Positions 32,218 through 58,935 of a stretch of DNA of 64,000 bases are shown here, one piece after another. Numbering within the stretch: position 1 is the stretch's first letter; each line of letters starts with the position of its first letter. The notes beneath the pieces are model-generated. The model was not told where the DNA came from, searched no databases, and saw only the letters and a list, made by a program, of their open reading frames with translations. Source of the DNA: Hemileia vastatrix (lineage: Eukaryota > Basidiomycota > Pucciniomycetes > Pucciniales > Zaghouaniaceae); contig JASXTE010000011.1 of assembly GCA_030280995.1 (NCBI GenBank), positions 25,714,817-25,778,816 of the forward strand, read 5' to 3'. The translations under genes were made by a program, and so were the position numbers.

Positions 32218-32816
32218 TGTCAGCCAGGCTACTAGACTTAACCGGTAAAATAATTTATTATTTTACTGAGTTGAAGCCACACCTCTTCTTCTTACTAATA
32301 ATTAATTATCTACTTAAGTATTACTTACAATTAACTAGTTAAGTACAATAAGTAGTATAATTAATTAGTGTAAATAAAATGTCCCCTACAATTTTACTCC
32401 CTAACACCGTGCTCAATAGTATAAGTCAATGGGAATAAAATTTAATAATAAAATTATAATAAAAGAACTTTAAAACAATTATATTACCTCAGTGAGAGAT
32501 CTGGAATCCCGTGAAAGTAATATAATTAATTAATTATTGTGTAATTAATTGTGACAGTCCAAGGAACTCAAACTTTATTGCTAATAAAATTGATGCCCTT
32601 GTTGACGTACCAGTTTATTTATTTCTTATGATATATATGTACTCCTTTTCTTTTTTATCCTTTTTCTCACACTCTTACAGTAGATGGTGTAAATTCCGTA
32701 TATTTTATTCCCATATGTTTTGCCTATAAAAGGCCTCTTATTTTGTGCTTTTCAAGACATTCCTTCATCACTTACTTTCACCACGGGAAATCTAGGGGTG
32801 AATTGCTAGCAATAAC

Positions 32817-33350
32817 CTCTCTTGAAATTTAGAGTGTCCCTTAATTATGCCAGGTTTATGAATACTTTATAAACATAAGTAAATTAGAGTTAGATTTACA
32901 TTTATTCTCAGATTGATTATAGACAGAATATCAACTGATTCCAAATTATGCACAAGTTGATCCTCCAGAACTTGATTTTGGTCCTCTGATGAGCACAAAT
33001 TGAGCACAAATTGATCTAACCTAAGCTTATGCATATATAATAATTCAGGATACTTGCTCTATTAAATTTGATAATAAAATAAAATATTGATGAATTTATA
33101 TAAAAAAATTATTATGTAAGATATTAAATTATAAATTTAGGCATCATAGGAGGGCACTTAATAGAACTTAATTATACTATGTGACACCTTAATACTGTAT
33201 CACGCAGTTTGAAACATTTAAAACAAAATTTGTCATGATGGGCAATGAAATTGCTTGGACAGACACTTTCAAAATTAATACTGACCATAATACACAAGTA
33301 TGAAACCTTGGCATCTATCCAATAAAAGATTTTCCTTCTGATAAATGGAT
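32817..33350. other. Unique left flank of the palindromic array
   Basis: AT-rich sequence without a recognisable gene, apart from a short tandem TGAGCACAAAT (32992-33015). Confidence 0.4.
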
Positions 33351-34345
33351 TTTTCTCAGTTACTCCCTGCTAAAAAGTGTCCTTGTGAGGTTTGTCTGAC
33401 CTTCAGGGGGGTAATTTGGCCACATCACACTACTTCTATTTCCATGATTTACCAAAACATCATCCTCATTTCCATCTAAAGAGTTGATCTCATCTGACTG
33501 TGGCTGATCAAAGGGGTCCACCACAAGTTTAGCCAAAATTTTGGTGAACACTTTTTTGATGGATAGTGACTATCTGGTGCTTTCTGAAATTGTCCACCTA
33601 AAGTTAGGCTAAACTTCAGGAGGATAAATTTATTATGAATACCAAATTAACTGAAGAATACTTTTGCCCTAGCTACTCTGCATCATAAAAGTTTCCAACT
33701 GAGGTTTAGCCATAATTCAGGTAGACACTTTTGGAAAGGCACAGTCTGATGGGTTTAATATCTATATATGACAATAAGTATAAGTTTTTTATCAACATGG
33801 AACTAGAATTAATTTAATATGGCCAGAGTTTCCACCTGAAGTTTGGCCAAAATACAGGTGGAAATTTTTATGAGGATTACTTGATGAAATGAAGAAGACT
33901 TGCAATTACTTTCCATCATAAAATTTTCAAACTTAAGTTTATCAAAAATTGTGGTGACACTTTTGCCAGATCCAGTCATATGGGATCAACTCTCTATATG
34001 GCAATGAGAATGAATTTTTAGTCAATCATGGCATTAGAAGTAATTTGATATGTACAAACTTTCAACCTGATTTTTGGCCAAAAATAAGTTGGAAACGTTT
34101 ATGAGGAATACTAGATTAACTAAAGAAGACTTGAAACCTACTACTTTCCATCATAAAAGTGTCCACCAGAAGAATTCTCAAGCTTGTGGTTGACACCTTT
34201 GGCCTGGTCCAGCCATATGGGATCAATTCTGCATATGGAAATGAGGATTTAATTTGGTCAATCATGGTACTAGAAGTAATTTGATATAGACAAAGTGTCC
34301 AACTAAATATTGGAAAAAAATCAGTTGAAAAATTCATTTAGTTTT
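33351..34345. repeat. Short-period (about 240 bp) palindromic repeats, diverged
   Basis: Imperfect palindromes centred on a GGCC-like core recur at about 33385, 33525, 33600, 33700, 33845, 33935, 34070, 34170 and 34310, alternating about 95 and 140 bp apart. Two contexts alternate: one preceded by CCATCATAAAAG and followed by CAGTCATATGGGATCAA, the other preceded by GTAGTTTGATATGG. This is the same pair of contexts as in the 608-bp units, but without the long AT-rich spacer. Confidence 0.65.
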
Positions 34346-37300
34346 TCAAAAAATCAAATTAAGTACAATTTTATTCCTGATGATGCCCATTTTATCCAAC
34401 ACCTCTTCTGAGCCTTGAAAGTAGGCATTTAGCTTGAATTTTGAATTTCATATAAAATCCCTATTATTCAACCTATTTCTTTTTATCCCTTTTTTTTCTT
34501 TTAAATATCAATTAATTTTATGTAAAACAAATCATTTTCATAATTTTTTACCTGTATTTAATAAAATTATTAAAGGTTTAACATCACCTTGTAAGCATTT
34601 GGCACATGTTTTTTTGCTATACTAATAAAAATAATAATATACTGGTAACAAAAAATTGATCAAATGATAAAATATTAATAAAACAGAAAGATCAAATACC
34701 AGTGGATATGTTTTAAAAAAATACCAGTTGCACTGAAGAAGAGATGCACCCTAGATACTCACCATCAAAAAAGTGTCCAGCACAAGTTCCGCCAAACTTG
34801 TGCTGGACACTTTTGGTCAGTTGCAGTCATATGAGATCAATTCTTGCTATGGAAACGAAAAATATTATTTGATAAAAAACTTCACTAGAAGTAGTTTTAC
34901 ATAGCCAAATTTTCTACCTAGATTTCATCCAAACCACAGGTGCACAATTTTTTATCTTTAAAAAAAAGTCAATTTAGTACAATTTATCCTTGATGTCTCT
35001 CATTTGCTTCAACACCTCTACTGGCCTTTGATAGTAGGAATATTACTTGCATTTCTTTTTACATATTTGATCCCTTTAACTTAATTTTTTGTTCCTGATA
35101 TTGCTTTAGGATATCAATTAATAATTTTTAAAATAAACTATTTTCATATTTTTATACATTTACTTAATAATATTATAAATGGCATAACATCACCTGGTAT
35201 GCATTTGGCACATGAGTTTTTTCTATACTTATAAAATTAATAATATAATGGCGACCAAAAATTAATCAAATGATATTAATGAGTGAGGAACAAATATAAA
35301 ATACCAGTAGACATGTTTGTAAAAAATACTAGATGAACTGAAGAAAAATTCTACCCTAGCTACTCTCTATTATAAAAGTGTCCAGCACAAGTTCGGCCGA
35401 ACTTGTGCTGGACACTTATGGTCAGGTGCAGTCAGATGGGAGCAATTATCTCTATGGAAATGAAGATAAATTTTTGATATAAAATTACACTAGAAGTAGT
35501 TTGATATGGCAAAATTTTCATGCTGAAGTTTTGGTAAAGCTCAAGTGGATTTTACTTTTATTTTTACAAAAAAGAAAATTTAGTGCAAGTTTAGCCCTGA
35601 TTGTGCTAATTTGATTCAACATCTCTTTTTTCTGTTTCTGGCAGGAATTTAACTTGGATTTTAATTTTCATCTTTGATTTCTTTTATTTTACTTTATTCC
35701 TCTCATATTGCTTTTGGATAGAAGTTTATTTTTTGTAAAATAAATCCTTTTCATATTTTTTTACCTTTATTTAATAACATTATAAAAGGTGTAACATCAC
35801 CCAGTATTCATTTGGCACACAAGTTTTTGCTATACTGATAATATTAATAATATAATGGTGACAAAAAATTAATCAATTGATAAATATGAGTGAGGCACAA
35901 AGATTTAATAACAGTGGAAATGTTTATAAGAAATTTCAGATGATTTAAAATGACTTGCACCCTGGCTACTCTTCATGATAAAAGTGTCCAGCACAAGTTC
36001 GGCCAAACTTGTGCTGGACACTTTTGGTTGCATGCCATCAGACGCAATCAATTCTTTTTATGGAAATGAGACTGAATTATCACTCCATCATTGCACTGAA
36101 AGTAGTTTTATATGGACAAATTGTCCCCTGGAAGTTTGTCCAAACCTAAGGTAGACAAATTTTTACTTTGTTAAAAAGTAAATTTGATCCATGTTAATCT
36201 ATGATGGTGCCCATTTTTTCTGAAGCCTCTACTGGCTCATGATAGCAGAAATTATACTTAATATCTTTATTTCATGTTTGATCTCTTTAATTTTAATCTT
36301 ACCCTTTTATTTATCCTTTAGCTTTTAAATATCAATTTTATTTTGGTAAAACTGATAACTTTCACATTTTTTTACATTTTTTATATTATATTATTAAAGT
36401 TGTAAAATCACCCAGTGTACATTCATTACACATGTTTTTGCTATACTAAAAACATTAATAATATAATGGTGACTAAAAAATGATCAAATAATAAATATGG
36501 ATGACACAGAAAGATCAAATACCCATAGACATTTTTAAAATTAATATAAGATTAACTGAAGAAGACTTGTACCCTAGCTACTCTCCATCATAAAAGTGTC
36601 CAGCACAATTTCAGCTGAGCTTGTTCTGGACACTTTTGGTTGCATGCAGTCAGATGGGATAAATTTACTCAATGGAAGTTAAAATGAATTTTTTCTCAAT
36701 CATTGCACAAGAAGTAGCTTTATACTGCTATACTATCCTCTTGATTTTTTGGAAAACCTCAGGTGGACACTTTTATTAATTTTAAAAAAAGAAAATATAT
36801 TCCAAATCTAGAACTGGTGGTGCAAATTTGGTCTGAAAACTCAAATTATCTTTGATGGCAAAAATTTTATTTGAATGTTTAATTTCATATTTAATCACTT
36901 TTATTTTACTTTTTATTCCTCTTTTTGCTTTCAAATATCAATTTATTTATTGTAAAACGAATACTTTTCATATTTTTTTTACTTTTATTTAATAAGATTA
37001 TGAAAGATGTAGCATCTCCCAGTATGCATTTGGCTTACAAGTTTTTTCAATACTAATAACATTAATAGTATAATGGTGAAAAACAAGGAATCAAATGATA
37101 AATATGAATGACACAGAAAGATCATATACAAGTGGATTTTTTTATAAGGAATACCTGATGAACTGAAGAAGACCTGCACCTTAGATACTCACCATCATAA
37201 AAGTGTCCAGAATAAGTTTGGCTGAACTTGTGCTGGACACTTTTGGTTGCATTCAGTCAGATGGGATAAATTTACTCTATGGAAATGAAAATGACATTTT

Positions 37301-40300
37301 GCTCAATCATTGCACAATAAGTAGTTTGATATTGCCAAAATGTCCTCCTGATGATTTTTCAAAACTCATCAGGACACTTTCTTTGGTTTAACAAAAAATA
37401 AAATATAGTGCAAGTTTAGCCCTGGTGGTGCAAATTTGATCTAACACCTCTACTTGTTATTGATAGTGGGAACTTTCCTTAGATTTTTTTTCTTATTTTA
37501 TCCCTTTTATTTTACTTTTTTATTGCTCATATTGCTTTGGATATCAATTTTTAATTTTTAAAATAAATAATTTTCATACTCTTATACCTTTATTTAATAA
37601 TATATGATTAAAGGTGGAACACCACCTGGTATGCATTTTTCACACAAGTTATTACTATAGTAATAACGTTTATAATATGATGATGACAAAAAATTAATCG
37701 AATGGTAAATTTAAATGACACAAAAAGATCAAATTCCAGTGAAAATGTTTATAAGAAATCCCTTTTGAGTTTAAGAAGATTTTCTGTATGCCTACTCTCA
37801 ATTATAAAAGTGTCCAGCACAAGTTCGGCTGAACTTGTGCTGGACACTTTTGGTTGCATGAAGTCATATGAGATAAATTATCTCTATGGCAATAAAAATG
37901 ATATTTCACTCAATTATTGAAGTAAAGAATGTTTAATATTGTAAAATTGTCCCCTGGAAGTCTGTCCAAACCTCAGGTCAAAATTTTTTAGCTATACATA
38001 AAAGTAAGTTTAGACCAAGTCTTGACCTAGGGGTCCCCAACTGTCCCAACACCACTTCTGGCTCTTGATAGTAAAAATTTTACTTGTATTTTTTATTTCG
38101 TATTTGATTGCATTTATTTTCATTTTACTTTTCTATTACTCTTTTTAATTTTAAATATCAATTTATTTTTTAAAAAACTAAACATATTCCTTTTTTTTTA
38201 ACTTTATATAATAATATTATTAAATGTGTAACATCACCAATTTTGCATTTGGAATGCAGGTTTTTGCTATACTAGAAAAATTAATAATATATATGGTGAC
38301 AAAAAATTAATTATAAGATAAATATGAATGATAAAAAAAAGTTAAAAACCCAATAGAAATGTGAAAAACAAAAAACTGATGTACTGAGAAACACTTCCAC
38401 CCTAGCTACTCTCCATCATAAAAGTGTCCAGCACAAGTTCAGCCGAACTTGTGCTGGACACTTTTGTTCAGGTGCAGTCAGATGGGATCAATTCTCTCTG
38501 TGGAAATTAAATTAAAAAAATGCTAAATAATTACATTAGAAGTAGTTTGGTATGGCTGAATTATCCGCCTTGAGTTTTTCCAAACCTCAGGTGAAAAATT
38601 TTTTATCTTTAAAAAAAATTAAATTTTATCAAATTTAGCCCTGATGGCACCCATTTGTTTCAACACCTCTACTGGCTCTTGAAGGCAGGAATTTTTCTTG
38701 AATTTTTCTTTTTCATATTTGATCTCTTTTACTTTACTTTTTTATCACTCATGTTACATTTGGATATTAATTTATAATTTTGGAAAAAAAATCATTTTCA
38801 TATTTTTTTAACATTTTTTAATAATATTATAAAAGGTGTAATATAACATGGCATGCATTTGGCGCACAAGTTTTTATATACTAATAAAATTAATAATATT
38901 CTAATGACAAAAAATTAATCAGATAATAAAATATGAATAACACAGAAAGATCAAATACCAGTTGACATGTTTTAAAAAAATAACAGTTTCACTGAATAAG
39001 ACCTGCACCCTAGCTACTCTCCATCACAAAAGTGTCCAGCACAAGTTTGGCCAAACTTGTGCTGGACACTTTTGGTCAGGTGCAGTCATATGGGATCAAT
39101 TCTTTCTATGGCAATGAAAAAAATTATTTGATAAGAAACTTCACTAGATGTAGTTTGATATAGCTGAATTATCCACCTAGAGTTCATCCAAACCACAGGT
39201 ACACAATTTTTTATCTTTAAAAAACAGTCAATTTAGTACAATTTATCCCTGATGGCTCTCATTTGCTTCAAAATCTCTACTGGCCTTTGATATTAGGAAT
39301 AATACTTGGAGTTCGTTTTTCATATTTGATCCCTTTAACTTAATTTTTTCTTCCTTATATTGCTTTTGGATATCAATTAATAATTTTGAAAATAAATTAT
39401 TTTAATATTTTTATACATTTTTTTAATAATATTAAAAAAGGTGTAATGTCACTCAGTATGCATTTGGCACACAATTTTTTGCTATACTTATATAATTAAT
39501 AATATAATTAAGACAAAAAATTAATCAAACAATATGTATGAGTGAGGCACAACGATAAAATACCAGTAGACATGTTTGTAAGAAATACCAGATGAACTGA
39601 AGAAAAAATCTACCCCAGCCACTCTCCATCATAGAAGTGTCCAGCACAAGTTTGGCCAAACTTGTGCCGGACACTTTTGGTCATGTGCAGTCAGATGGGA
39701 TCAATTCTCTGTATGGCAACAAAAAAATGTTTTTATCAAATTTCACTAGAAGTAGTTTGGTTTAGCTGAATCATCCACCTGCTGTTCTGCCCAATATCAG
39801 GTGTATAATTTTTTATCTTTAAAGAAAAGGTCACTTATTACGATTAAGCCCTGATGGCTCCCATTTGCTTTAACACCTCTACTGGCTCTCAATAGCAGGA
39901 ATTTTACTAGTATTTTTTTCATATTTGAACTCTTTGACTTTTATTTTACTCTTTTATTCCTCTTTTTAATTTTAAATTTCTATTTAATTTTTGTAAAACT
40001 AATCCTTTCCATATTTATTTACATCTATTTTAAAAAATTATTGAAGGTATGACTTCACATGGTATGCATTTGGCACACAAGTTTTTGCTATACTAATAAC
40101 ATTAATAATATAATGGTGATAAAATATTAATCGGATGATAAATATGAAAGATACAGACTGATCAAATACCAGTAGACATGTTTATGAGAAATACAAGATG
40201 AAGGAACTGAAGAAAATTTCCACCCAAGCTACTCTCCATCATAAAAGTGTCCAGCACAAGTTTGGCCAAACTTGTGCTGGACACTTTTAGTCATGTGCAG

Positions 40301-41990
40301 TCAGATGGGATCAATTCTCAATATGGAAACAAAAAAACATTTTCTTATTAAACTTCACTACAAGTAGTTTTGTTTAGCTGAATCATCCACCTGTTGTTCT
40401 TCCCGACCTCAGGTGTATAATTTTTTATCTTTAAAAAAAAGGTCACTTATTACAATTTAGCCCTGATGGCTCCCATTTGTTTCAACACTTCTACTGGCTC
40501 TTGAGAGCAAGAATTTTACTAGTATTTTGTTTTTCATAATTGATCTCTTTGAGATTAATTTTACCTTTTTATCCCTCATATTGCTTTTTTATATCAATTT
40601 ATTTTTTGTAAAACAAATCATTTTCATATTTTTTTACCTTTATTTAATAATATTATAAAAGTTGTAACATCACCCAGTATGCGTTGGGCACATGAGTTTT
40701 TGCTATACTTATAATATTAATAATATAATGGTGACAATAAATTAATCAAATGATATATATGAGTGAGGCACAAAGATCAAGTACCAATGGACATGTTTAT
40801 AAGAAATACCAGATTAACTGAAGAAAAATTCTACCCTAGCTACTCTCCGTCATAAATGTGTCCAGCACAAGTTTGGCCAAACTTGTGCTGGACACTTTTT
40901 GTCTCATGCAGTCTGATGTGATCAATTCTCTCTCAATCATTGCACTAGAAGTTGTTTGATATGGCTAAATGGTTCTGCTGAAGTTTTTTAAAACCTCAGA
41001 TTGGCACTTTTTTGTTTTTCAAAAAAGCAATTATAGTCCAAGTTTAGCCTCACTGGTGGACATTTGCCCCAACATGTCTACTTGCTCTTGATGGCAGTAA
41101 TTTTATTTTAATTTTTTATTTCATATTTGATTCCTTTAATTTTACCTTTTTATCGCTCATATTGCTTTTGTATATCAATTTATTTTTTGTAAAACAAATC
41201 ATTTTCATATTTTTTTACCTTTATTTAATAATATTATAAAAGGTGTAACATCACCCAGTATGCATTGGGCACTTGAGTTTTTGCTATACTTATAATATTA
41301 ATAACATAATGGGGACCAAAAAACAATCAAATGATAAATATGAGTGAGGCACAAAGATCAAATACCAGTGGACATGTTTATAAGAAATACCAGATGAACT
41401 GAAGAAAAATTCCACCCTAGCTACTCTCCATCATAAAAGTGTCGAGCACAAGTTCAGCCAAACTTGTGCTGGACACTTTTGGTCACATGCAGTCTGATGT
41501 GATCAATTCTCTCTATTGCAATGAAAATGAATTTTTCTTCAATAATTGCACTAGAAGTTGTTTGATATGGCAAAATTGTCATCCTGAAGTTTTGGTAAAG
41601 CTCAAGTGGATTTTTTTTTATTTTTACAAAAAAGAAATTATAGTCCAAGTTTAGTGCCACTGGTGGGCATTCACCCCATCATGTCTACTTGCTCTTGATG
41701 GCAGGAATTTTACTTTAATTTTTTATTTCATATTTGATCCCTTTAATTTTATCTTTTTATCCCTCATATTGCTTTTGGGTATCAATTTATTTTTTGTAAA
41801 ACAAATCATTTTCATATTTTTTTACCTATATTTCATAATATTATAAAAGGTGTAACATCACCTGGTATGCGTTGGGCACACAAGTTTTTGCTATACTTAT
41901 AATATTAATAACATAATGGTGACAAAAATCAATCAAATGATAAATATGAGTGAGGCACAAAGGTCAAATACCAATTAATCAATAGTTCTT
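34346..41990. repeat. Tandem array of about 608-bp units, each with a 46-bp palindrome
   Basis: Twelve strong palindromes lie at 34769, 35374, 35980, 36592, 37199, 37806, 38420, 39028, 39633, 40243, 40854 and 41435. The spacings are 605, 606, 612, 607, 607, 614, 608, 605, 610, 611 and 581. The arm is AAAGTGTCCAGCACAAGTT and the core GGCC or close to it. Each is preceded by CTACTCTCCATCATAA and followed by GTGCAGTCAGATGGGATCAA. About 140 bp later comes a second, weaker palindrome, then about 370 bp of AT-rich spacer with CATCACCCAGTATGCATTTG. All frames in the array are shadows of the repeat. Confidence 0.9.
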
Positions 41991-42715
41991 TTTAATATTA
42001 TAAATTTTTTTATTAAATAAAATGGTAATAATGAATTATATTTTTCATCCACAATTCCACTCTAATGATTCCCACTGCACAAAAAGGGTTCACTCAGTCC
42101 TTTCTTTACTGCTTGTGCATATATTTTATTGCCCACAGTACTACAATTTTTTGTAGTGATTATCCCACATCTGATTCAGGAATATTTTTGAACAATATAA
42201 GTTTTTTTTACAAAAGACCTTATCATATCCAATATCCCACAAAAAATACAACCTGTTTTTGTATTAAAACCCATTAATTATTAAGAAATTGTTAAAATAA
42301 TTAGATTAGACCCTGGCACAGCTAGATCCATACCAACCGACCTAAAGTCTTTTCAATATTGAAAACAATTAAATAAAATTATGATATCATACTAAATTAT
42401 GGGCACCAACCATAATTCAGCACTTCTCATTTGCTCTGCTACAAAATGAGTGCATGTAGCATTTTTCTAACATTGGACTGTTTTTCTTCCTTCCCTCACA
42501 CCTTTAGTCCAGAATGAAAATTTAGTATGAGTTTTGGTCAAAATGGTTCGCCAGTGTTATCTGTATGCAATATGAATTCATATTGCATATTTCTATTTAT
42601 GCATAAAATATACTCGTTAAGCATCATTTTTTTGCATTTTTCAATCATTATGCATATTTATGCATATTCATATGCATATTCATTATACAGACTTATATGC
42701 ATATTAATATATTTT
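41991..42715. other. Unique right flank of the array
   Basis: No recognisable gene. The frame at 42065-42277 has no supporting motif. Confidence 0.35.
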
Positions 42716-42930
42716 ATTCATATACATATATGCACCTTTTTTTGCATATTCAATATGCATATTTTTAATGCATATTCAATATGCATATTTTTATGCATAT
42801 TCAATATGCATATTTTTATGCATATTCAATATGCATATTTTTTATGCATAATCACTATGCATATTTTTTATGCATATTATTATGCATATTTTTTATGCAT
42901 ATTTATTCTTCATAGTCATTATGCATACAC
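42716..42930. repeat. TATGCATATT minisatellite
   Basis: Runs of ATATGCATATTTTTATGCAT alternate with TATTCA over about 215 bp, with a period near 24 bp. The octamer ATGCATAT is itself palindromic. The long open frame here (42527-42970) is a by-product of the repeat. Confidence 0.8.
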
Positions 42931-43542
42931 TTTGGATAGGCATTTCACATCAATTTTTAGCATGCAATAAGTATCCACCATGCAAATTCAAATGCATATG
43001 CATCTATATCATACATGCAACATATATTCAAGTTTAATATTTGAATATTAAGGTATGCTAAGTGATGTTGTTCAACCTTTTGCCAAACCTGTGATTAACT
43101 GATGTTCAATGTGGTTCTTAAGCTCTGCTCAAGGAGGGATTGTTCTGGATTCAATCTGTGACAGTTTATTTTTTCAATGTTTTTTCATCAGATTTAAAAA
43201 CATCTTTCTGACAGTTTCAGGATGGTTTCCCAACAGTTTCCTGACAAATTCCTGATAGTTTCAAATAGAGGGAACTGCTAGCAGTTCACCCCCAGATTTC
43301 CCGTGGTGTTTATTATTACAATTACAATACAACACTTATTTCTATATTTTATAACCTAGTATTTACAACGGCGTAATTCTAATCTATAATCTATATTAAT
43401 ATTTTAAAACTACCTCTTTTATTTGAGTAAAACAATCATATTGATTTAGAAATACGTACCCTTTTGTTGAGAGACCATTAAACCCTTAAAACCCTCATAA
43501 AAACCTAGAATAAACTTCTAGACCCAAAAGGACCCCTTGACA

Positions 43543-44662: not shown

Positions 44663-47600
44663 TCATAATTCAAACATTTCAAAACAATAATCTCCTTTAT
44701 TCAAATAATCTTGCCACAATTCTTTTCTCTTACTCTTTCTATTACTCTGACCACCATCATGGCTATGATTGACGTGACCCTTTTTAGTGGCTCTCCACGA
44801 GCGATTTTGGTTCCTTACAGAATCATATTTCTCTTTGGACTTTTCCTTCTTCTCATCATCATCATCATGATTATCAAGACTTTTATATTTTGAAAGATCA
44901 CCATTGACGAGATATTGTGGTTGAGGAGTTTTCTTCTTTTGATTGATCTTTGCTTTATTTTTGTCAACTTTCCGATTCATCGATAATAATCGATTTGGGT
45001 CTTCATTCATCAACCGATCTTGATCCTTTTTCATCCGTTTTTCAACCTTGGCCATCCGTTCTTGTTTTTCTGATGCTAATTTAAATCTTCCAAGAGGGCC
45101 ATATAAAATTTTTAATGGATCGGTTGATTTAATTTGTTGTGATATACTAGTATGTAAAGATGCCAATAAAGGATGCGAAGGTGTGAAACGGATGAGATCA
45201 AGAAAATGAGCATCGAAAAGCATTTGCGTAAACACTATCAACTGAAAATGTATATATATAATCTTAATTAGATAGACTATATAGCCTACAAAAAATTTTA
45301 TTTAAAAAAAAAAAAAAAAAATCACATGAATGAGTCAACTGACGTGATCAAGGTTAGGAACTTTGGTAGTTAATGGGTGAGAAGGGGAAGTTTTATCGAC
45401 AGATGTGTTGGATGGTTTTTTGCAAGATTTCACTTTTTTCATTTTTAACATATCTACAGACAACACGTCTTCATTACAGAATGAATGCCCATTGGCTTCT
45501 TGAGAAAGAGGAGCTGGATCATCTGGATCAAAACCCACTCGATACCACCACTGAATCCATTGTTCTAACAGAGTCAACATTTGAACAACGTCAGTTGTGT
45601 CTAACTGAGTTTTCAAAGCATGTCTCATTGCAACAGAGAATGATATTTGAGAAACAATTCGAGAAAAAGAAGCAGAGAAAAATGGGGAGGTTGTCTTTTG
45701 ATCAAGTCGAATGAAGACTTGAAGAGTGCGAATGATTTCCAATTCTGAAAGGTCGGTTAAGAACCAAAGAGCAAGATTGACTTTTCTCTAAAAATAAAAA
45801 TATGGGGAGGGAAAGAAAAAAAATGTTTATTATTATAATTATTTATATTAAAGAAATAAAAATAAAAATAAAAAAAGTGACCAACCCAATCTCGTGTTGC
45901 TCGAAGAGCACTTAAAACACCACCAGGAATGATTGATTGATGGACAAGACCTGAACAAATTAGACTGCTAACAATTTTCGAAGGGTATACAGCTACTTCT
46001 TGTTTAAATGAAGTAGATGTGTTAGAGAGGACGTGGTTGGTGTCAATTGAATAAAATGGGGCAAGACAAATTTCGATGATAGATTGGGTGATGTCTAATG
46101 GTAAAGAAATCTGCTCATGTATATAAAGAATTCAGCCCCTTTTCGTCGCACAAACTGAATATATATTGGTTATTGACCTGATTGAAAGATGTCGTCGGAA
46201 GATTTTTCCTCTCCTTCTTCTTCTTACCAACATCAGTTCGAGAGGTGAAATTTTGATGATGATGATGACAAGTATTAGTAAGATATTGGGACCATAATAC
46301 TTCAAGATGTTGAACAGTTTCTGAATTCCAGCCAGATGAAGGAAGAGGGAAACAATTGGAAATTGCATTAGAAAAGGGCTGTAGATGTTGACGAGACTTG
46401 GGGTCTAATAGTTGATCAACTGCCTTGGAAAGACGCTGAGAGGGTGATAGAAGGTTTGGGTGAGTCAACCATTTTTGAGTTGCTTCTCTGGCTTCAGAAG
46501 AAAGTGATTGAACCAAAGTAGGATGAGGCATATCAGGAAGAGACATAGTTTGGATGCATTGTTTGGAAGGGGATTGAAAGCAGAGGAAAGAACGGGCCAG
46601 GAGGTCGTCGGTGAAGACAGAAAGTCTTGGAAAGGAAGTAGAAGGATTAGAAGAGATGAGGGAATCAGGAAGGGGGGTAGAGATGGCAGAAAGAAGAGAA
46701 TGATGATAAGAATCGACTAGGAGAATAAGGAAGTGTGAAGAATCGGAGGGGTGAGGGGTATATATTAGTGTGAGGGGAGTGGACGAGGGCAGAGGTATGA
46801 TGGAGGTAGAAAGAGAGCTGAGTGGCTGTTTGAGGGAAGATAGTGATATAGGAGGACAACGAGCAATAGGAGCTAAGGAGAATGGGTTAGAAAGGAAATT
46901 GGAATGAGGAGTGCAATGAAGTTCAAAGGAGAGTAAAGTGCTTTGATGAGCTATTGGCCGAGACAAAGTAAAAATAAAAATAAGCAAAATAATCTTTTTT
47001 TCAAAAAAAAAAATAATAAAAAGAGAACCAACTGAGTAACGTTAGCCAGCCTTGGAGTGGATGAAAAGCAATATCAATAAATGGATGTTCATTAAAATCC
47101 AATTTGGCAAGATGTTTGATTTGAGAGCCATCGGACTCAATTGAAAAAAACTGAATAGAAAGAGCAGAGTGATGAGTTTGAGATGAAAAGGTGATGGGAG
47201 GGGTAGATTTGCGTTTTTTAGATTTAGAAGATTGATGATGATGGTCTATGAGAGGAGAATTTTTAGAGGAAGAAGAAGGAATCATGTGGATGGAGATGAA
47301 AAGGTAGGAGAGAGTCGAGTGATGGGGACCCAATAGATGTTTAGCCCATTGAGGTGAATGATGGATGGAGGAAGAGGAGGATGGATGAAAGAGAAAAGAG
47401 AGGAGGCGAGGAGATGGAAGAGATGACAGAGGAGAAGAAGGGGAGACGGGAAGACGGGCCAGGATGTTGGAGAGAGATGGATCGCAACAGAGAATTTGAT
47501 TTGAAGCAAGGAAGACGATGATGATAGGAGAAGAAGAAGAGGAGGGAAGAGGAGGAAGGATATGAAGAGCCAAGACAGGATGCTCAAAGGAACGAATGAG

Positions 47601-47999
47601 ATAAGGATCGGAAGAGTCAGAGAAGCCAGAAGGGAGTTGAATTTCGTGCCAAACCAAGACGGCATGACCTTGACGGACCAAAGGAAGAGGATGAGAAGGG
47701 GAAGAAGCAATGGGAGCATAGATGAAGCGTTGACGAGGGAGATGAAGATGATTAGTAAAAGATAAAGCGAGACAAGGATTAGAGAGGATTAGATCGGGAG
47801 GAAGAGGACGAGAAGAGAGGGGAGATTGAGAGGGGAGATGAAAAATAGACCAAGCATGATTAGGGATTGTAGTGATTGCATGATGAGAAGAAGAGGAAGA
47901 AGAGGAAGGAAAGTGGATGACGGGAAGAGTAGCCAAGAGAGGGGAAGAGTGAGGGTGAGGGTGAGTGTGTAAAGTGTAGGGAAGAGAGAGGATTGACAT
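44663..47999 (-). CDS. Probable nucleolar t-UTP protein, NOL11/Utp8-like (five exons)
   Basis: Exons on the minus strand: 47999-47033, 46950-46178, 46110-45886, 45787-45344 and 45241-44663, with GT-AG introns of 82, 67, 98 and 102 bp. The frame stays open for 995 codons. I chose the ATG at 47999 because the longer frame upstream reads through the promoter minisatellite. Residues 1-600 are Ser/Pro/His-rich with a possible beta-propeller region; residues 580-810 look helical. The C-terminal exon opens with MLFDAHFLDLIRF, continues as a charged coiled stretch and closes DYCFEMFEL. A DAHF-type block and an EVxEL-type terminus are what I recall at the end of NOL11, a t-UTP/UtpA subunit that couples rDNA transcription to pre-rRNA processing in the nucleolus. 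The family call is moderate; the gene structure is firmer. The protein would be longer than NOL11 or Utp8 (about 700). Confidence 0.6.
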
Positions 48000-48259
48000 T
48001 GAATGAAAGAGAATGAGAATGAGAATGAATAAATAAAAAAAAGACAAAAGAGTGCAAGTTGTGGTTGAAGGCAATTTGGATATGCATATGCATGTACTTC
48101 GCCATATGCATCTACTTCGCCATATGCATGTACATACTTCGCCATATGCATCTACTTCGCCATATGCATGTACATACTTCGCCATATGCATCTACTTCGC
48201 CATATGCATATATACCCCTCCCCCCTCCTTCCCCCCGCTTTTCCCTCCCTCTTCCAGCC
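48000..48259. promoter_or_regulatory. Shared divergent promoter
   Basis: The start codons of the two host genes are 260 bp apart and face away from each other, so both promoters must lie here or overlap the neighbouring 5' regions. The half next to the plus-strand gene is pyrimidine-rich (CCCCTCCCCCCTCCTTCCCCCC at about 48214-48235). The centre is the 39-bp minisatellite. Pairing a ribosome-assembly gene with a respiratory gene could allow joint growth control, which is an inference from layout alone. Confidence 0.6.
48081..48213. repeat. 39-bp promoter minisatellite with ATATGCAT palindromes
   Basis: CTTCGCCATATGCAT occurs six times (48098, 48115, 48137, 48154, 48176 and 48193), alternately followed by CTA and GTACATA. 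This makes a 39-bp higher-order unit repeated about three times. The octamer ATATGCAT is palindromic. Translated on the minus strand it gives a spurious repetitive N-terminus, which I excluded from the gene. Confidence 0.85.
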
Positions 48260-50156: not shown

Positions 50157-50945
50157 TGTCAGCCAGGCTACTAGACTTACCCGGTAAAATAATTAATTAT
50201 TTTACTGAGTTGAAGCCACGCCTTTCTTCTTAATAATATTTATTTACTTAAGTAGTACTTACAATTAACTAAAGTTAAGTACAATAAGTAGTATAAATAA
50301 ATAATATAAATAAAATGTCCCTTAGAATTTTACTCCCTAACACCGTGCTCAAAAATATATGTCAAAGGGAGTAAAATTAATAATAAATTTATAATATAAA
50401 AACTTTAAAACAATTATATTACCTCAGTGAGAGATCTGTAATCCCGTGAAAGTAATGTAATTGATTATTTATTGTGTAATAATTGTGACAGTCCAAGGAA
50501 TTCCAACTTTGTTGCTAATAAATTTGATTCCCTTGTTGACGTACTAATTTATTATTTTCTTATGTCATTTATGTACTCCTTTTTCTTGTCATTCTTTTCT
50601 CTCACACTCACAGTAGACGGTGCAAATTCCTTACATTTTATTTCCTCATATTTTGCCTATAAAAGGCCTCTGATTTTGTGCTTTTCAAACCATTCTTTTA
50701 TTAACTTACTTTATTATTACTATTTAAAACACAATACTTATTTTTATATTTTATCACATTAGTAGTTACAAGAGCGTAATTCTAATCAATAAATTATATC
50801 AATATTTAAAACCTACCTCTTATATTTGAGTAACAAATCACTTAGATTAATAAATACGTACAAATTTTTGAGAGTTCATTTAAATCCTTAAAATCCTCGT
50901 AGAAACTTCGTACCAAATCTTCTAGACCAAAAGCGTACCTTGACA
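50157..50945 (+). repeat. 5' LTR of the chromovirus
   Basis: It starts TGTCAGCCAGGCTACTAG and ends GTACCTTGACA. It has the CCCTAACACCGTGCTCAA core (50334) and a TATA box in GCCTATAAAAGGCC (50656). The small frame at 50472-50762 is not a gene. Confidence 0.92.
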
Positions 50946-52005
50946 ATTGAGGGCTTTCCGAATTATCGACAGCGCAACGATATTTGAGGTGTAATCATGG
51001 GGGACCATCGGTGTGCGAGTACCTGTAAAGGACGAGAGAGCGAGAAAACGACGAACGTCATACGTCACGTGACAAAATTTTTTGCTGCGAACGGAAATCG
51101 AACCGCGCTCCAAAAATTAAGTTCATATACTGACTAAACGTCGTATATATCGTGGTAATTATTGTTATTACTATTTGTGGGTTACTCTTCACTCTTCATT
51201 TGCTACGTATTTCCTTTTACTCAGCACTCTGTAAGTGGCATTAATTTGCTCATTTTTCAGGGGGAGGTGTCTGGTAATTGGACTTTATTTTTATTATTAT
51301 ATATTTTTTTTTATTTTTCCTGGTAGACCATAATAGAGCAATAAGTGTTCTTAGTCCCAGAGGTAATAAAATAATTATATTTTAATATTAATTATTATAA
51401 TTTTTCAGTTGACATTTGTCCTGATTAATTTAATTGTTCCAGTTGACAAATTGTCCTGACAATAATATTTTTAATTAATATATAATTAATATTTAATTAC
51501 TTCAGTTGACTTTGAGTCCTGGTAATTCAATAAATATTTTAATTAATAAAACTCATATTTAATTATTTCAGTTGACATTAAGTCCTGGTAATTAAGTGAT
51601 CAAGCTTAATAAAATTTTAAAATAAAAATTTATATTTAATTACTTCAGTTGACATTAAGTCCTGGTAGTTAAGTTATCAGTTTAATAAAATTTTGTTAAA
51701 TTAATAAAGTCTCATATTTGATTACTTCAGTTGACAATAAGTCCTGGTAATAAATTAGTTGATTTAAATCCTGAAAATAATTAATTAAAAATTATTAATA
51801 AAAATTCTAATTTATTTCTACAGTTGATTATATTATAATCCTGGTTTTAAATTTTTTTTTATTAATAAATTAATTTTATTTAAGTTGATTTTTATCCTGA
51901 AAAAAGATTTTTTTATTTATTTTATTTTATTTTTTTAATAAAAAATCAAAAATAAAGACTAATTAATCTTATTGTCTCTTTTCTTCATTTCAGTAAAATC
52001 TTAAA
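50946..52005 (+). other. Primer-binding block and tandem-repeat leader
   Basis: ATTGAGGGCTTTCC follows the LTR directly and is shared with the two other elements here, so it is the likely primer-binding site. From about 51325 the leader contains at least eight repeats of the form TTCAGTTGACATTAAGTCCTGG at 50-90 bp spacing, each separated by AT-rich text. The related element at 63.8 kb has the same kind of block. Packaging or translation control is possible but unproven. Confidence 0.65.
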
Positions 52006-52570
52006 ATGACTGACCAAAGTGGTTCTGCTGCACGTGAAGAAGAACTAGACTTAATTGATTATGATGAGCCTACTTCTGTAAGTTCTCCTTTAACAAGAAG
52101 AATTTCTCAAACTAATAAATTCTTTCCCCAAACAGGATGTAGAGATGGAAGAAGTAGAAATCCTAGTGGACACAACTCAGGATCAGAAGCCTATGATAAA
52201 CCCACCAGAAGAGCTTCCAAAAGGCTTCAGGATAAAAAAGATGCCATTGTCTCAGCAGGTAAAGAATCTGTCTACTCACATAAAGGAGTTAAGGACAGAA
52301 AGCTTGAGACTAAAGGTAAGGGTAGATGCTTTGGAAGAAAAGGTGAGAAGAACAGATACTTTTCTCCAAGAGAAGAAGAAACCTCTTCCTCCCAGGGATC
52401 AACAAAAATTGGCTCCCCAGTCCCAAGAGAAGGTGGAAGTGTCCAAGTGGCAGTGGGACTGGCTAAACACTAAGTGGGACTACCTGGCTCAAAACCAGCA
52501 TCAGTTACCTCAGGCAGGTCCATCAAGGCCCAACCAGGTCAACCCCACTCCTCCCCACCCTTATCAATGA
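52006..52570 (+). CDS. Leader (pre-gag) frame with a probable 58-bp intron
   Basis: From the ATG at 52006 (MTDQSGSAAREEELDLIDYD) the frame reaches a good donor (GTAAGT, 52078). An acceptor (CCCAAACAG) ends at 52135, and splicing joins DEPTS to DVEMEEVEILVDT in the second frame. That frame runs to a TGA at 52568-52570 and contains a coiled stretch and SKWQWDWLN. The gag-only copy at 2.4-2.9 kb has the matching SKWKWDW segment. Introns in Gypsy elements are uncommon because the genomic RNA must stay unspliced, so this could give a separate subgenomic product. The stop overlaps an ATG (ATGA, 52567-52570) of the next frame. Confidence 0.5.
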
Positions 52571-54351
52571 GGCAAAAGAAGAAGAAAGCCCAATATGGTG
52601 ATACCCAGAAAACCCTGGTACGTCCCTCTATTGATTCTCAAGTGCCTTTTCTTGTGGCTGACTCTGTTCTTTCAGGTAAATCTGGAAGGGAGGATGAAAC
52701 CTTGAGACCTATAGAGGCTGGGAGTAGTAGACAAATCACTCATGTATCTAATCCTTTACTTTTAATTGCTACCTCAATGATTAATCCTGATATGGCTGTG
52801 ATTGATGAAACTCTTGACCCTGAGTTCTATGAGAGTCTAGAAAGTTACTCAGTTTCCTTATTGAGAAACACTCCAGATGTAGCAAGAATTAATGATGAGC
52901 ACTTGAGAGATATTATTGCCAAGCAAAATCATATAATGAACAATATGCAATTGACTCAGAGATATAATAGTTTGTTAACTGGTCAGGGTTATCAAGCATT
53001 AAGAAGTGAATCACAGAGAGTCTCTGATGAATTGTCTCATTACAAAGCAACCCATGAAAAGAAAGTTGCTTTATGGTAAAATATAAAAAATGATTTGTCT
53101 AAACTAAAAGATACTGTATCTGCCTGTTGCCAGGAGGTAGAGATAGATAAGATAAATCTGAAAAGATTGAATGACCATTTGTCATCTTTTCAAAATAAAA
53201 ATCAGTTATCTTTTGCAACTATCAATGAGAGTTTATCTAGTCTTCCAAGAATGAAAACAAGACTAACAACCATTGAAGAAAAATTGAACTCATTGTTAAA
53301 TGACCAAAAATATTCTGACATTTCTGTGAAGGAACATATAGTGTAGGATGCTCAAATAGTACCTGTGGCTAGTTCATCTAAAGTAAAAATAGCTCCAGAG
53401 ATACCTGTTGATAACACTGAGTTTCCATCAAAAACTGATGATGCACCAGGATCTGCAACAGAAGGATTAAACAATGAGATTTCAGCCCAATTAGAGAAAT
53501 TACAGCTGCTTCTTACTCAGAAACAAGCTAGTACTAAGGAGACTCCTTCAAATCAAAAGAATTGGTCAAAACTTGACCAGTACCCAACATTTGATGGTGA
53601 TTCTTCTTCTGATTGGCAACAATTTATTTGCAGAATTGATAACTTAAAAAATTCTTACAAACTCCCAGATGAGGAAATTGTGTCCAAGTTAATTTCTTTG
53701 TTCACTAATATTGCCCTGATGTGGTATGATTCTGTTCTCCTGGATGGGAATGACTACTCATGGGAGGATTGGAAAAAATTAATTAAAGCACAATTTGGTG
53801 GCTCCAAGTTCAGAATGGCTCAACAAAGTCAGTATGAGGAAACTAGATATAGCTCTTCTACTGATAAACCTATTGAGTTTTTAATGAAACTTGTAAAAAT
53901 CATAAGGGCAATGGACCCAAATATGGAGTTTGATTTATGGAAGGACAGGATCCTCTATAAATTACCAATGTCTCTGAGAGACTTGATAGTGGCTAGGACT
54001 GAGTTATCCAAAGAACCCTCTTCTTTCATTAATACTTGCAATGAGATACTTCTAAACAATAAGTATGATGCCAGAAGATTCATTCCTAGGACCCCTTTGG
54101 AGAAACCCTCCACTTACCAACAGAAACCTCTGGAAAATGTTGGTAAACCTTCTGCCCCTGTTGCACCAAAGAAGTATGCAACAAACACTTACTTCAAGTG
54201 CAACAAGCCTTGGAAGAAAGGCCATGTTTTTGACAAGAAGATAAATCTTGTAGAACAAACAGAGGAGCATGCTGATGACACAGTGGCACTGGATGATACA
54301 TCAAGTGATTGTGCCAGAATATTTCATATGAATCTCAACAAGAAATCTTGA
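52474..54351 (+). pseudogene. Chromovirus gag with two in-frame stops
   Basis: One frame runs through this region, interrupted by TAA (53077-53079) and TAG (53344-53346). The N-terminal half is coiled and charged. The retrotransposon gag domain lies at about 53570-54070 with WSKLDQYPTFDGDSSSDW, SYKLPDEEIVSKLISLF and NTCNEILLNNKYD. The zinc-knuckle region (54190-54240) reads TYFKCNKPWKKGHVFDK. Compared with the copy at 0.9 kb (CYKC...GHNC), the first Cys has become Tyr and the last Phe, so two of four metal ligands are lost. The frame ends at TGA 54349-54351. Confidence 0.8.
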
Positions 54352-55076
54352 TGCTGGAAGAGGATATCCATTATTTAAACACTATTGATATTGATAATAA
54401 TGATTTATCTACAGTTGAAGATGCTGAGATCATAAAGAACATTGAGGATAGCTCAATTATTATTGCCCCTCTCAAGGCACCAGTCTTGATCAATGGAACC
54501 AGCATTGAAGTTGTTCTGGATTCTGGAGCTGGAGGAAGTATAGTATCTGAAAGAGCACTTGCTTCAGTAGATCAAGACTATAAATCTAAACTGATGCCTA
54601 TCATTTCTGAAAATTGGAGAGGGTATGGCTCTGTTTTGTCCCCCATTGGTAAATACAAAGCCACAGTGTTTTTTAAATATAACCATGGTTTTGTAAGAGC
54701 TATTTGTGATTTTGTTGTCATGAAAAATGATAACTTGAGCAATTGGTTTATTGTAGGGAATGATATTTTAACCAAGAATGGCATAAAATTGGATCCTTCA
54801 AACCAATGTTTCACAATGGGGATGAATGGGAAGAGAAAATTTAAGATTTCCTCCCCTAAAAAATTATTAAAACCAGAATTGAACACATGTAATTCTGTGG
54901 TTCAATATAAAGGAAGATCTAAAAAGGAAATGCATGCCCTTATGTCTGAAATTGACAATGCTTCTTTTGGAGAACAACTTTCTGGTGAGGATAAAGATTC
55001 CATCATTAACTTGATAAAATCTTTTCCTATGGCCTTTGCTCATGGGTCACATGAACTGGGATTAGTTAAAGAGTAA
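54309..55076 (+). pseudogene. Chromovirus protease segment of pol
   Basis: The frame carries the aspartic protease active site VVLDSGAGGSIVSERAL (about 54513-54560) and a second block FIVGNDILTKNGIKLD, both expected for retroviral-type proteases that cut the Gag-Pol polyprotein. It lies at -1 relative to gag. In the related copy near 0.8 kb the same segment is in the gag frame, so a one-base deletion near 54318 probably separated them here. A TAA at 55074-55076 interrupts the reading into reverse transcriptase, which continues in the same frame. Confidence 0.8.
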
Positions 55077-57950
55077 ATGAAACTTTCATTGTCTTGCCCA
55101 TTAACTGATATACCACCTAGTTTAAAGAAGAAGCCTTATCCTGCTTCTCCCACAAAGAGAAAAGATATTGAAGACAATATCTCTACCCTTTTAAAAATGA
55201 ATATTATTGAAAAGGTAGTTGAAACACCTAAACATTGTGTTATCTCACCTGTCCTAATTTCTTATGAGAAAGATAAAGCCAGGTTATGTGGTGATTATAG
55301 AGCACTAAACACTTATACTGTTGATGATATCTACCCTTTACCTAGAATTAGCTCTATACATGCTACTTTACAGGGTGCTAAATATATCAGCTGTTTGGAT
55401 GGTAACAAAGGATATCACCAGGTACCTGTTGAGAAAAATTCTCAAAACTTTCTGATGATTGCCACTCATATGGGTATTTATAAGTATATTAGGATGCCAT
55501 TTGGCCCTAAAAATTCCCCTTCAGTTTTCCAAAAATTAATGGATAACAAATTCCATCAAGAGATAATTGAAGGATGGCTGATGGTTTATATTGATGATAT
55601 CATTATATTCTCAAAAAAATTTGAGGACCATCTTAAAAACCTGTGTAAAGTATTCCAGAAAATCTATGAAATAAATATGACACTTGCTTTGAAGAAATGT
55701 AAATTTGGTTTCCATTCTTTAAAAGTTCTTGGTCATGTTGTTTCAGGCTTACAGATATGTGTTGACCAGAACAAAGTGGCAGCCATACAACAGGTTAAGG
55801 CTCCAACAACAGTGAGAGAGCTCCAAAGTTTTTTGGGAATGTGTGGATACTATAGACAGTATATTAAAAATTACCAAGTCATAGCTTTACCCCTTACCCA
55901 ATTAACTAGAAAGGATGTTGCTTTTGTCTGGAATAGTGAAAGACAAAGAGCCTTTGACACTATGAAACACTGTTTGATGTCAGCACCAATTCTTGCTTTA
56001 CCTGACTTTAATCAACCATTTGTTTTGTACACTGATGCCAGTTTCATTGGTCTTGGTGCTGCCCTCCATCAAAAACAAGTGATAAATGATAAAGTTTCAG
56101 AAGTAGTAATTTGTTATATTTCAAGAACCTTGAGAAATAGTGAATTGAAATATGGTGCTACTCAATTAGAGTGTTTAGCTGTAGTATGGGCTCTGGAAAA
56201 GCTTCATTATTACCTAGATGACCAGAAATTTGAACTTGTCACTGACTGCAGTGCAGTTAAATCCCTTTTAAACTTGAAAACACCTAACAGACATATGTTC
56301 AGATGGCAGTTGGCTGTTCAAGAGTACAGAGGGAGAATGACAATTATTCATAGGGCTTGTATTATTCACTCAAATGTGGATATGTTATCTAGGTTACCTT
56401 TGCCAAATAATGACTCTAATCCTGCGTATGATCCTGAGGAAAAAATTATTCATATACATGGGATATATGTGGTTGATATGGATGAAGAGCTATTACAGCT
56501 TATTCTGGAATCATATGATAAGGACACTGACTTGAAAAAGTTATGCACCATATTAAATGATCCAAAGAATACTTCAATACAAGCATTAATTAAAACCCTT
56601 CCACCAAAGTACCAAAAAGCTTTGGAAAAAGGTAAATTTTCAATTGATGAAGGATATCTATATTATAGAAGAAAGTTGAGTAATTTTATTGTTATTCCTC
56701 CTTCTATGAAAGAAATCATCTTGAAAATTTGTCATGATGACATATTAGCTGGACATTTTGATCTTGACAAAACAATGATCAGAATTAAGAACACTGCTTG
56801 GTGGGCTAATATGTCTGAAGACACAAAATTATATGTTGAATCTTGTGATTCTTGCCAAAAATCAAAAATATTAACTGGTAAAAGAGCAGGATTAATGCAA
56901 CATATTGAACCTCCTGATGCTCCATGGCAAATAATAAACATGGATTTTGTAACAGGATTACCTATTGCTGGTAAAGACAGTTATAACTCTTGTTGGGTTA
57001 TTGTGGACAGATTCACAAAAATGTGTAAATTTATCCCTACCCACAAGGATTTTTCCACTAAAGAATTAGCTTTCTTATGGTGGTCTCATATGTTTAATAC
57101 TGCTGGTTTTCCTAAAGTCATAATCTCTGACAGAGACCCTAAATTTACTTCTGAATTTTGGATGTCTCTGATGGATGTTTGTGGTTGTGATCTGAAACTT
57201 TCTACTGCCCATCACCCTCAGACTGATGGTTTAGCTGAAAGAATAATTCAGACTTTAGAGGACATGATAAGAGGATATTGTGCCTTTGGCCTTGAGTATA
57301 AAGATAATTACAGATTCACTCATGATTGGGTTACCTTACTTCCTGGGTTAGAATTTGCTTATAATAGCACTGTTCATTCTGTTACTCAAAGAAAGCCTTT
57401 TGAGCTCTGGCTTGGATATGTTCCCAATACTCCTGCCCAAATTCTCAATAACAAAATACCTAAATTGGATATACATCCTGGTGTAAAATCTTTTCTTCAA
57501 ATGCAACAACTATGTGGAAATAATGCTCAAAAATGTATTGAAAAATCATTTGAATATGAGAAGAAAAGATGGGACAAATCCCATAAAGAATACACTTATA
57601 AAAAGGGTGATGAAGTGTTGATTTCTACAGTCCACTTCAACTTACAAGGTAATAACAAATTGAAAGATCCATTTGTTGGTCCATTTGTTGTCAGAAGAAT
57701 GATTGGAGATAATGCAGTTGAAGTTATTCTGTATTCTCCATATGACAGAAAACATCCTGTTTTTCCAATATCTCTTTTGAAACCTTACACATCTAATAGT
57801 GATTTATTTCCAAAAATGAGGGGAAGACCAAAGAAAACCCCAAATGAAATCACTGAAACAGCAGAAATTGAAAAAATTCTAAATGACAGAATAGTCACTG
57901 CTGAAAAAGGTACAGAATACTTATTGAGATTCAAGAAAAAAATCATCTAA
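55077..57950 (+). CDS. Chromovirus pol: reverse transcriptase, RNase H, integrase
   Basis: 957 codons are open. Reverse transcriptase: DYRALNTYTVDDIYPLP and a YIDD box at about residue 171 (MVYIDDIIIFS). RNase H: FVLYTDASFIGLGAAL near 317, ECLAVVWALEKL, and NVDMLSRLP. Integrase: HHCC zinc site at about 552-593, then the D,D35E core with D near 623 (NMDFVTGLP), D 684 (ISDRDPKF) and E 720 (QTDGLAERI). The enzymes copy genomic RNA into DNA and insert it. The catalytic residues are all present, unlike in the copy at 28-31 kb. The initiator Met is simply the first codon after an in-frame stop; the native product would be a Gag-Pol polyprotein. The frame ends early inside the chromodomain. Confidence 0.9.
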   Translation: MKLSLSCPLTDIPPSLKKKPYPASPTKRKDIEDNISTLLKMNIIEKVVETPKHCVISPVLISYEKDKARLCGDYRALNTYTVDDIYPLPRISSIHATLQGAKYISCLDGNKGYHQVPVEKNSQNFLMIATHMGIYKYIRMPFGPKNSPSVFQKLMDNKFHQEIIEGWLMVYIDDIIIFSKKFEDHLKNLCKVFQKIYEINMTLALKKCKFGFHSLKVLGHVVSGLQICVDQNKVAAIQQVKAPTTVRELQSFLGMCGYYRQYIKNYQVIALPLTQLTRKDVAFVWNSERQRAFDTMKHCLMSAPILALPDFNQPFVLYTDASFIGLGAALHQKQVINDKVSEVVICYISRTLRNSELKYGATQLECLAVVWALEKLHYYLDDQKFELVTDCSAVKSLLNLKTPNRHMFRWQLAVQEYRGRMTIIHRACIIHSNVDMLSRLPLPNNDSNPAYDPEEKIIHIHGIYVVDMDEELLQLILESYDKDTDLKKLCTILNDPKNTSIQALIKTLPPKYQKALEKGKFSIDEGYLYYRRKLSNFIVIPPSMKEIILKICHDDILAGHFDLDKTMIRIKNTAWWANMSEDTKLYVESCDSCQKSKILTGKRAGLMQHIEPPDAPWQIINMDFVTGLPIAGKDSYNSCWVIVDRFTKMCKFIPTHKDFSTKELAFLWWSHMFNTAGFPKVIISDRDPKFTSEFWMSLMDVCGCDLKLSTAHHPQTDGLAERIIQTLEDMIRGYCAFGLEYKDNYRFTHDWVTLLPGLEFAYNSTVHSVTQRKPFELWLGYVPNTPAQILNNKIPKLDIHPGVKSFLQMQQLCGNNAQKCIEKSFEYEKKRWDKSHKEYTYKKGDEVLISTVHFNLQGNNKLKDPFVGPFVVRRMIGDNAVEVILYSPYDRKHPVFPISLLKPYTSNSDLFPKMRGRPKKTPNEITETAEIEKILNDRIVTAEKGTEYLLRFKKKII

Positions 57951-58029
57951 ATATGATTCTTGGATACCTGGGAAGGAGATATCTAATTTTCCTACTCTAC
58001 TAAAAAAGTATAAAAAGAAAAAATCATAG
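57860..58029 (+). pseudogene. C-terminal chromodomain, split by a homopolymer frameshift
   Basis: The pol frame begins a chromodomain (EIEKILNDRIV, TEYLLRFKK) and hits TAA at 57948-57950. In the next frame the domain continues as YDSWIPGKEISNFPTLL to TAG at 58027-58029. The change of frame falls at an A7 run (57936-57942), so one extra A explains it. Chromodomains on integrases read heterochromatin marks and steer insertion. Confidence 0.75.
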
Positions 58030-58062
58030 CATTTTTTTTATTGTTTTTTTAGATTGAGGGAG

Positions 58063-58859: not shown

Positions 58860-58935
58860 CTAGCCCTGGGGCTAGTGGATAAGAATCTTCCGCAATTAAT
58901 AATGACTGATCCCAGGAAAAAAAATTCCTGATCCC

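Follow-up and report, generated by a model that had tools for sequence, protein, structure and literature searches.

EnSpm/CACTA transposons are known to carry subterminal repeats that are bound by a TnpA-like protein. The EnSpm elements of rust fungi have CAC..GTG ends and 3-bp target-site duplications (PMC12730594). The Jozin CACTA elements of Chenopodium quinoa contain a 5.5-kb satellite array near their 3' end, composed of 171-bp monomers whose consensus is 97.7-98.8% alike between elements; the array was found in four elements, all bearing Transposase_21 (PMC8978399). Tetris carries internal tandem repeats, and the repeats of Galileo hold additional transposase-binding sites (PMC4079207). 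The oyster Helentron Cg_HINE is non-autonomous, carries satellite-like arrays and makes no target-site duplications (PMC7492417). Satellite-like arrays inside DNA transposons are easily taken for captured passengers.

Borders, coding content and family size

The window is a stretch of 64,000 nucleotides from the rust fungus Hemileia vastatrix. It contains a 10.5-kb element (32779-43308) that has CAC..GTG ends and inverted repeats, and that starts with CACCA rather than with the name-giving CACTA. The left terminal inverted repeat (TIR), CACCACGGGAAATCTAGGGGTGAATTGCTAGC..., lies on the plus strand at 32779-32816 and the right TIR, CACCACGGGAAATCTGGGGGTGAACTGCTAGC... when read inward, lies on the minus strand at 43271-43308; both were defined by end comparison, by the copies and by genome-wide TIR counts. 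When the left end is compared with the reversed right end, 33 of the first 38 bases match, as do 30 of the first 32. The TIRs read CACCACGGG...TGCTAGC. End comparison and the empty site place the TTT target-site duplication at 32776-32778 on the left and at 43309-43311 on the right. Joining the flanks with a single TTT gives ...CTTACTTTATTATTAC..., which is uninterrupted in two LTR copies in the same window (50.2-50.9 and 58.1-58.9 kb; 83% identity over 298 bp in both). The precise borders, 38-bp TIRs and TTT duplication described in an earlier sequence-only reading of this DNA therefore hold, and its assignment to the CACTA type agrees with published rust EnSpm elements in both the CAC..GTG ends and the 3-bp duplication.

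The surroundings of the element hold other features. An LTR element at 50157-58862 has LTRs of 97% identity together with a long pol frame (55077-57950); the palindrome element is inserted in another LTR of this family, one that has diverged further. On the minus strand, 44663-48191 contains serine- and proline-rich open frames; three of these have no Pfam match, and the one that was searched gave no protein match. These frames are possibly exons of a host gene.

The only open reading frame of at least 100 aa inside the element (42527-42970) is AT-rich, and the tandem-repeat finder placed an AT-rich TATGCATATTCA minisatellite in the right arm at 42648-42927. A Pfam scan of eight out of 14 ORFs of the two arms (one overlapping the array edge) gave no match over the cut-off and one sub-threshold match with an E value of 0.11. 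The proposal that the element has no recognisable gene is thus upheld for these ORFs, and no Transposase_21-type enzyme was found among them or in the single longer frame. Since no transposase was found in the element, it is filed only as non-autonomous EnSpm/CACTA.

A search of the 747.6-Mb genome with the TIR pattern, allowing up to two mismatches, returned 2,007 forward and 2,016 reverse matches, 4,023 in total, and none for the control. This number of ends corresponds to about 2,000 elements; two-ended copies have 1.94 detected ends each, which gives an estimate of ~2,100 elements. From the TIR counts, the family is estimated to occupy ~21 Mb, or ~3% of the genome. Copies were sampled by array similarity, using two units as the query. 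There were 3,096 first-look candidates, of which 40 were scored, and 20 of the 39 non-window matches were read together with the window. Both ends were found in 16 of these 21 copies, only the left end within the stretch read in three, and neither in two. Exact 3-bp duplications flank 13 of the 16 two-ended copies at 13 different sites (tat in six, aat in four, and ttt, aga and tga), and by these duplications the family falls outside the Helentron/HINE elements, which have no target-site duplication. PIF/Harbinger elements duplicate TWA or TA. Harbinger was set aside as the mobiliser because the duplications observed here (tat, aat, ttt, aga, tga) are not the TWA or TA of that superfamily.

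The reverse check started from the ends. Twenty TIRs were picked by hand among 100 exact ones listed of the 4,023, all on contig C2, and the sequence 3 kb inside them was the array in 14 (94-99% identical) and other sequence in six. Thirteen of the 14 lay near the expected element coordinate and one was 3.7 kb off. These results demonstrate the mobility and the copy number of the palindrome element. The element in the window is a mobile, non-autonomous EnSpm/CACTA element, as the earlier reading had supposed; the TIR pair, which might have been confined to this locus, is spread over the genome and is flanked by duplications at the 13 sites.

The palindrome lattice and its relation to transposases

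The body of the element is a plus-strand array which extends from ~34090 to ~41975 and contains 12 units of ~607 bp, each consisting of an old ~235-bp palindrome pair and a ~370-bp insertion. The 12 main palindromes (34769-41480; centres 34792, 35397, 36003, 36615, 37222, 37829, 38443, 39051, 39656, 40266, 40877 and 41458) are 46 bp in length and 581-614 bp apart, with 19-23 of the 23 arm bases paired. One of them, folded as DNA, gave -25.9 kcal/mol (z = -9.3). A motif scan added 12 degenerate second sites (34906-41617), which lie 137 bp past the main site in nine units and 134, 136 and 112 bp past it in the remaining three. It also found nine decayed palindromic sites in the plus-strand left arm (33373-34337; centres 33396, 33533, 33609, 33710, 33847, 33943, 34078, 34178 and 34314), spaced 137, 76, 101, 137, 96, 135, 100 and 136 bp apart. 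The weakest accepted site matched 29 of the 46 motif bases, and the best match in 20 simple shuffles was 26. The twelve near-perfect palindromes that the sequence-only reading had seen at a 608-bp period are present as the main sites, but the palindromic sites number 33 in all. Its tandem array is present too, with the extent given above and with units that are on average only 75% identical to one another (91% in the palindrome and 74% elsewhere). The tandem-repeat finder was limited to periods of 500, and the 608-bp array is absent from its list. The decay of the second sites indicates that not all sites are needed.

Aligning the left arm with the unit revealed one homologous cell of ~235 bp, and the ~370-bp insert of the unit falls in the interval that runs from the second site to the main site of the following unit. 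The alignment thus demonstrates a nested origin of the 608-bp unit from an older palindrome pair: a single cell of an older palindrome lattice gained ~370 bp, and the resulting cell of 608 bp was then duplicated to 12. The first left-arm spacer (33396-33533) is inverted with respect to the unit, with an identity of 0.77 when reversed and 0.60 when forward, the highest value in 300 shuffles being 0.64. Of the remaining left-arm spacers six have the forward orientation; the one of 30 bp at 33533-33609, which scored 0.38 forward and 0.47 reversed against a shuffle maximum of 0.42, was assigned to neither orientation.

Odd spacings among the genome palindromes led to a second lattice, L075 (C2:836801-839300). 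It has 21 palindromes, each matching 39-45 of the 46 motif bases, at a pitch of 101-102 and 134-137 bp that alternates strictly in all 20 intervals. The spacers of L075, either short (55-56 bp) or long (88-91 bp), resemble those of the left arm in the window in length, but no relation in sequence was detectable between the two sets (forward 0.60-0.61, reverse 0.57, shuffle maxima 0.64-0.70). Relative to the first of their kind, two of the ten short spacers and five of the ten long ones run in the opposite orientation. Recombination between palindromes can produce such flips as a by-product, and the strict alternation suggests that they involve single spacers or odd runs of spacers. With L075 as the query, 2,307 first-look candidates were obtained, of which 40 were scored; the listed ones among its 357 matches were grouped manually into 40 loci.

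Transposase_21 is abundant in this genome, with 2,198 first-look candidates and 150 scored, all of them over the cut-off; the same profile matched in none of 14 control genomes. An L075-type array lies within 20 kb of a scored Transposase_21 match at eight of the 40 loci, and in all eight the array is on the 3' side of the transposase, at a distance of 4.7-5.9 kb in six and 15-16 kb in two. Examples of Transposase_21 loci that have such an array lie around C2:22738099-22747244, C103:15336717-15345312 and C84:7640134-7649056. Random placement on the same contigs, for which the lengths of some contigs were approximated, gave a mean of 0.36 loci and a maximum of 4 in 20,000 trials. The other 32 L075-type loci have no transposase within 20 kb among the 150 scored of 2,198 candidates, and none of 40 window-type loci lies within 20 kb of a scored match. 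These data show that spacers are flipped in these lattices and that, at some loci, the palindrome and pitch recur on the 3' side of transposases with different spacers in between.

A transposase-bearing partner with the same TIRs as the window family is hinted at on C2. Two of the three transposase-near arrays on this contig have an exact left-form TIR of the window family at a distance of ~15-16 kb and are located on the inner side of that TIR. For the third, the exact left-form TIR is 20.9 kb away and the nearby transposase points the other way. The comparison draws on 100 TIRs listed of 4,023, so that the shared TIR is only a hint. Inspection by eye of the listed stretches between listed TIR pairs 8-12 kb apart found no Transposase_21. 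At C2:7163228 and 7167184 the arrangement is an unusual one, with palindromes 5' of the transposase: a Transposase_21 match lies ~4 kb from an exact palindrome, and two more palindromes, oddly spaced, occur ~10 kb away.

Several candidates for the autonomous partner were discarded. An 18.1-kb TIR pair on C19 turned out to enclose a copy of the element itself, enlarged by a nested insertion of ~7.4 kb, and the 5 kb that were read of an 18.06-kb TIR pair on C2 consist of the array and other repeats. A coding-looking stretch 3 kb inside a TIR at C2:7373507 has a cysteine-cluster ORF of which 379 bp match other repeats, and nothing in it looked like a transposase on inspection. That locus (L059) and L060 (C2:7399855) contain the same 250-bp stretch; the two copies are separated by 26.3 kb and each is located 3 kb from an exact right-form TIR, which suggests that a segment was duplicated recently. 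The element copy on C19 (C19:6378096-6396434, loci L050-L052) hosts its nested insertion with an ORF that by eye resembles a Harbinger transposase. The insertion also holds the gene of a Tet-like 2OG-Fe(II) oxygenase (PF20515, E 9e-30), and its Myb/SANT match is weak, the 17.5 bits falling short of the cut-off of 27. Harbinger families that carry TET have been published for rusts, where they are reported to lack a Myb/SANT domain (PMC12730594).

A fixed block and its possible function

Two-ended copies of the element are on average 96.9% alike, compared with 75% from unit to unit inside the element. The spacing series is the same from copy to copy save for lost units and insertions, and the order of the units is fixed. 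This is not the behaviour of a homogenising satellite, and the long free arrays and concerted evolution of classical satellites do not describe units that differ more within an element than between copies. The array is not simply a captured satellite; it was multiplied as a fixed block together with the element. The earlier description of a satellite packaged as cargo must be revised to that extent, since the blocks are fixed, satellite-like homogenisation is not seen and there is limited room for free arrays.

The best explanation, which we consider probable, is a high-copy non-autonomous EnSpm/CACTA element whose body is an enlarged cis-acting palindrome lattice of the transposon system, serving as a putative binding array. 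Transposase_21 enzymes encoded elsewhere in the genome would move the element in trans. Each 46-bp palindrome would be a putative two-fold-symmetric binding site for a TnpA-like protein or for the transposase, and many such sites at a fixed pitch of ~102 and 137 bp may assemble or attract the transposition complex. Any two palindromes are related to each other as direct and as inverted repeats at once, so that recombination or replication slippage between sites could flip, delete or duplicate spacers. The same palindrome and pitch recur beside transposases with other spacers, which indicates that the palindrome and the pitch are what is kept; together with the higher identity of the palindromes between units (91% as against 74%), this favours putative binding sites of the transposition system. 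The suggestion of a binding array in the sequence-only reading thus gains from the second lattice beside transposases, but binding itself, like a role in transposition, mobilisation in trans and the sharing of TIRs with a transposase-bearing element, is something that we infer. Several observations count against this explanation: the second sites are decayed, 32 of the 40 L075-type loci have no transposase within 20 kb among the 150 scored, and, unlike the subterminal repeats known from EnSpm elements, the palindromes in the window start 617 bp inward from the left end, the motif scan finding none in the right arm.

Copy-to-copy comparison bears on the rival in which an ordinary satellite array was taken up by a non-autonomous CACTA element, the palindromes having spread as passengers with no function in transposition. 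Outside CpG, the palindromes diverge between copies no more slowly than the rest (0.0178 vs 0.0167), as this rival would have it. Among the 16 copies, variants common to at least two copies were only weakly rarer in the palindromes, being found at 4 of 492 palindrome sites and 127 of 6,270 other sites (p = 0.06; p = 0.05 when tested against singletons). In a larger copy set the figures were 12 of 486 and 242 of 6,234 (p = 0.14; 0.11 against singletons), and only four of 104 shifted placements were as low as the palindromes. Selection on the palindromes, suggestive with 16 copies, was therefore unsupported with more, and there is no clear constraint on the palindromes between present copies, which counts against the binding-array explanation. 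The data are compatible with constraint in only a few source copies, without showing such constraint. Satellite capture has also been published for a CACTA element (PMC8978399). Against this rival, the 24,625 palindromes in the genome (control 0) correspond to 6.1 per TIR end, compared with 6.2 in the 21 copies read (211 to 34) and 5.4 in those 16 that have both ends, which average 10.4 palindromes to 1.94 detected ends. Free arrays can thus be only a minor part, and part of this modest surplus must be truncated copies and L075-type arrays, which the count takes in. Additionally, the element's own left arm keeps an older form of the lattice, and a lattice with other spacers lies 3' of transposases at the eight loci. 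Satellite capture is for these reasons unlikely.

We are similarly doubtful that the palindromes are products of recombination or replication, hairpin-prone sequences that stay symmetric through copying from arm to arm and were spread by template switching, with spacer flips arising on the side and no protein bound to them. The two orientations of the L075 spacers, the inverted first spacer of the left arm and the very stable fold of the palindrome all agree with such an origin. However, it would be expected to flip two adjacent spacers, which would break the alternation seen in all 20 intervals, and it does not account for the persistence of the 46-bp sequence and of both spacer lengths (~55 and 91 bp) in two lattices whose spacers are unrelated. 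The position 3' of transposases is also left unexplained. It is quite unlikely, if conceivable, that the palindromes are recombination nodes, where a protein encoded by the transposon would bind adjacent sites and cut or pair them, so that individual spacers are inverted and the alternation of the pitch is preserved; the lattice would then be a shufflon-like or transpososome-loading device common to autonomous and non-autonomous EnSpm elements.

In the 16 two-ended copies C to T changes affect 18.6% of CpG positions and 1.2% elsewhere, and this strong CpG-to-TpG decay suggests that the family is or was methylated. A hairpin small-RNA locus, whose array transcripts would fold and feed silencing RNAs acting on the family, would fit this decay, as expected of methylated repeats, and the near-perfect 46-bp inverted repeats, but is very unlikely because loop-less hairpins with arms of just 23 bp, such as these palindromes would form, are poor Dicer precursors, and because spacer flips and a fixed DNA pitch point to DNA and not to RNA.

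Comparison with known systems

A lattice of phased palindromes with flipped spacers was found in no EnSpm element in the literature searched, a limited collection of papers represented partly by excerpts. The claim that the element matches no known class was nevertheless too strong, as a CACTA element with a satellite array has been published in Chenopodium quinoa (PMC8978399). Like Jozin, the element in the window is a CACTA element that holds kilobases of tandem repeats, with the array near the 3' end. Unlike it, Jozin elements bear Transposase_21 and have 171-bp monomers, and the excerpted text mentions no palindromes (PMC8978399). The internal tandem repeats are a feature shared with the foldback transposons Tetris and Galileo, although the repeats of the latter two lie inside long TIRs (PMC4079207), whereas the element in the window has TIRs of 38 bp and carries its repeats internally. 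Like Cg_HINE, the window family is a non-autonomous carrier of dispersed tandem arrays, but it differs in having TIRs and exact 3-bp duplications, the latter in 13 of 16 copies (PMC7492417).

Another close comparison is with the rust EnSpm elements (PMC12730594). The element in the window starts with CACCA, has no transposase that was found, and has a palindrome-lattice body that the excerpted description of those elements does not mention. It shares with them the CAC..GTG ends and the 3-bp duplications, in a genome where Transposase_21-type enzymes are abundant. The natural spacer flips are a record of recombination at short palindromes, and the family offers a testable case in which arrays of binding sites could evolve into satellite-like DNA and make non-autonomous elements successful. 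Where captured satellites might be suspected, the repeated part here looks like a lattice that belongs to the transposon system itself, and a gene-less form has spread to ~2,000 copies.
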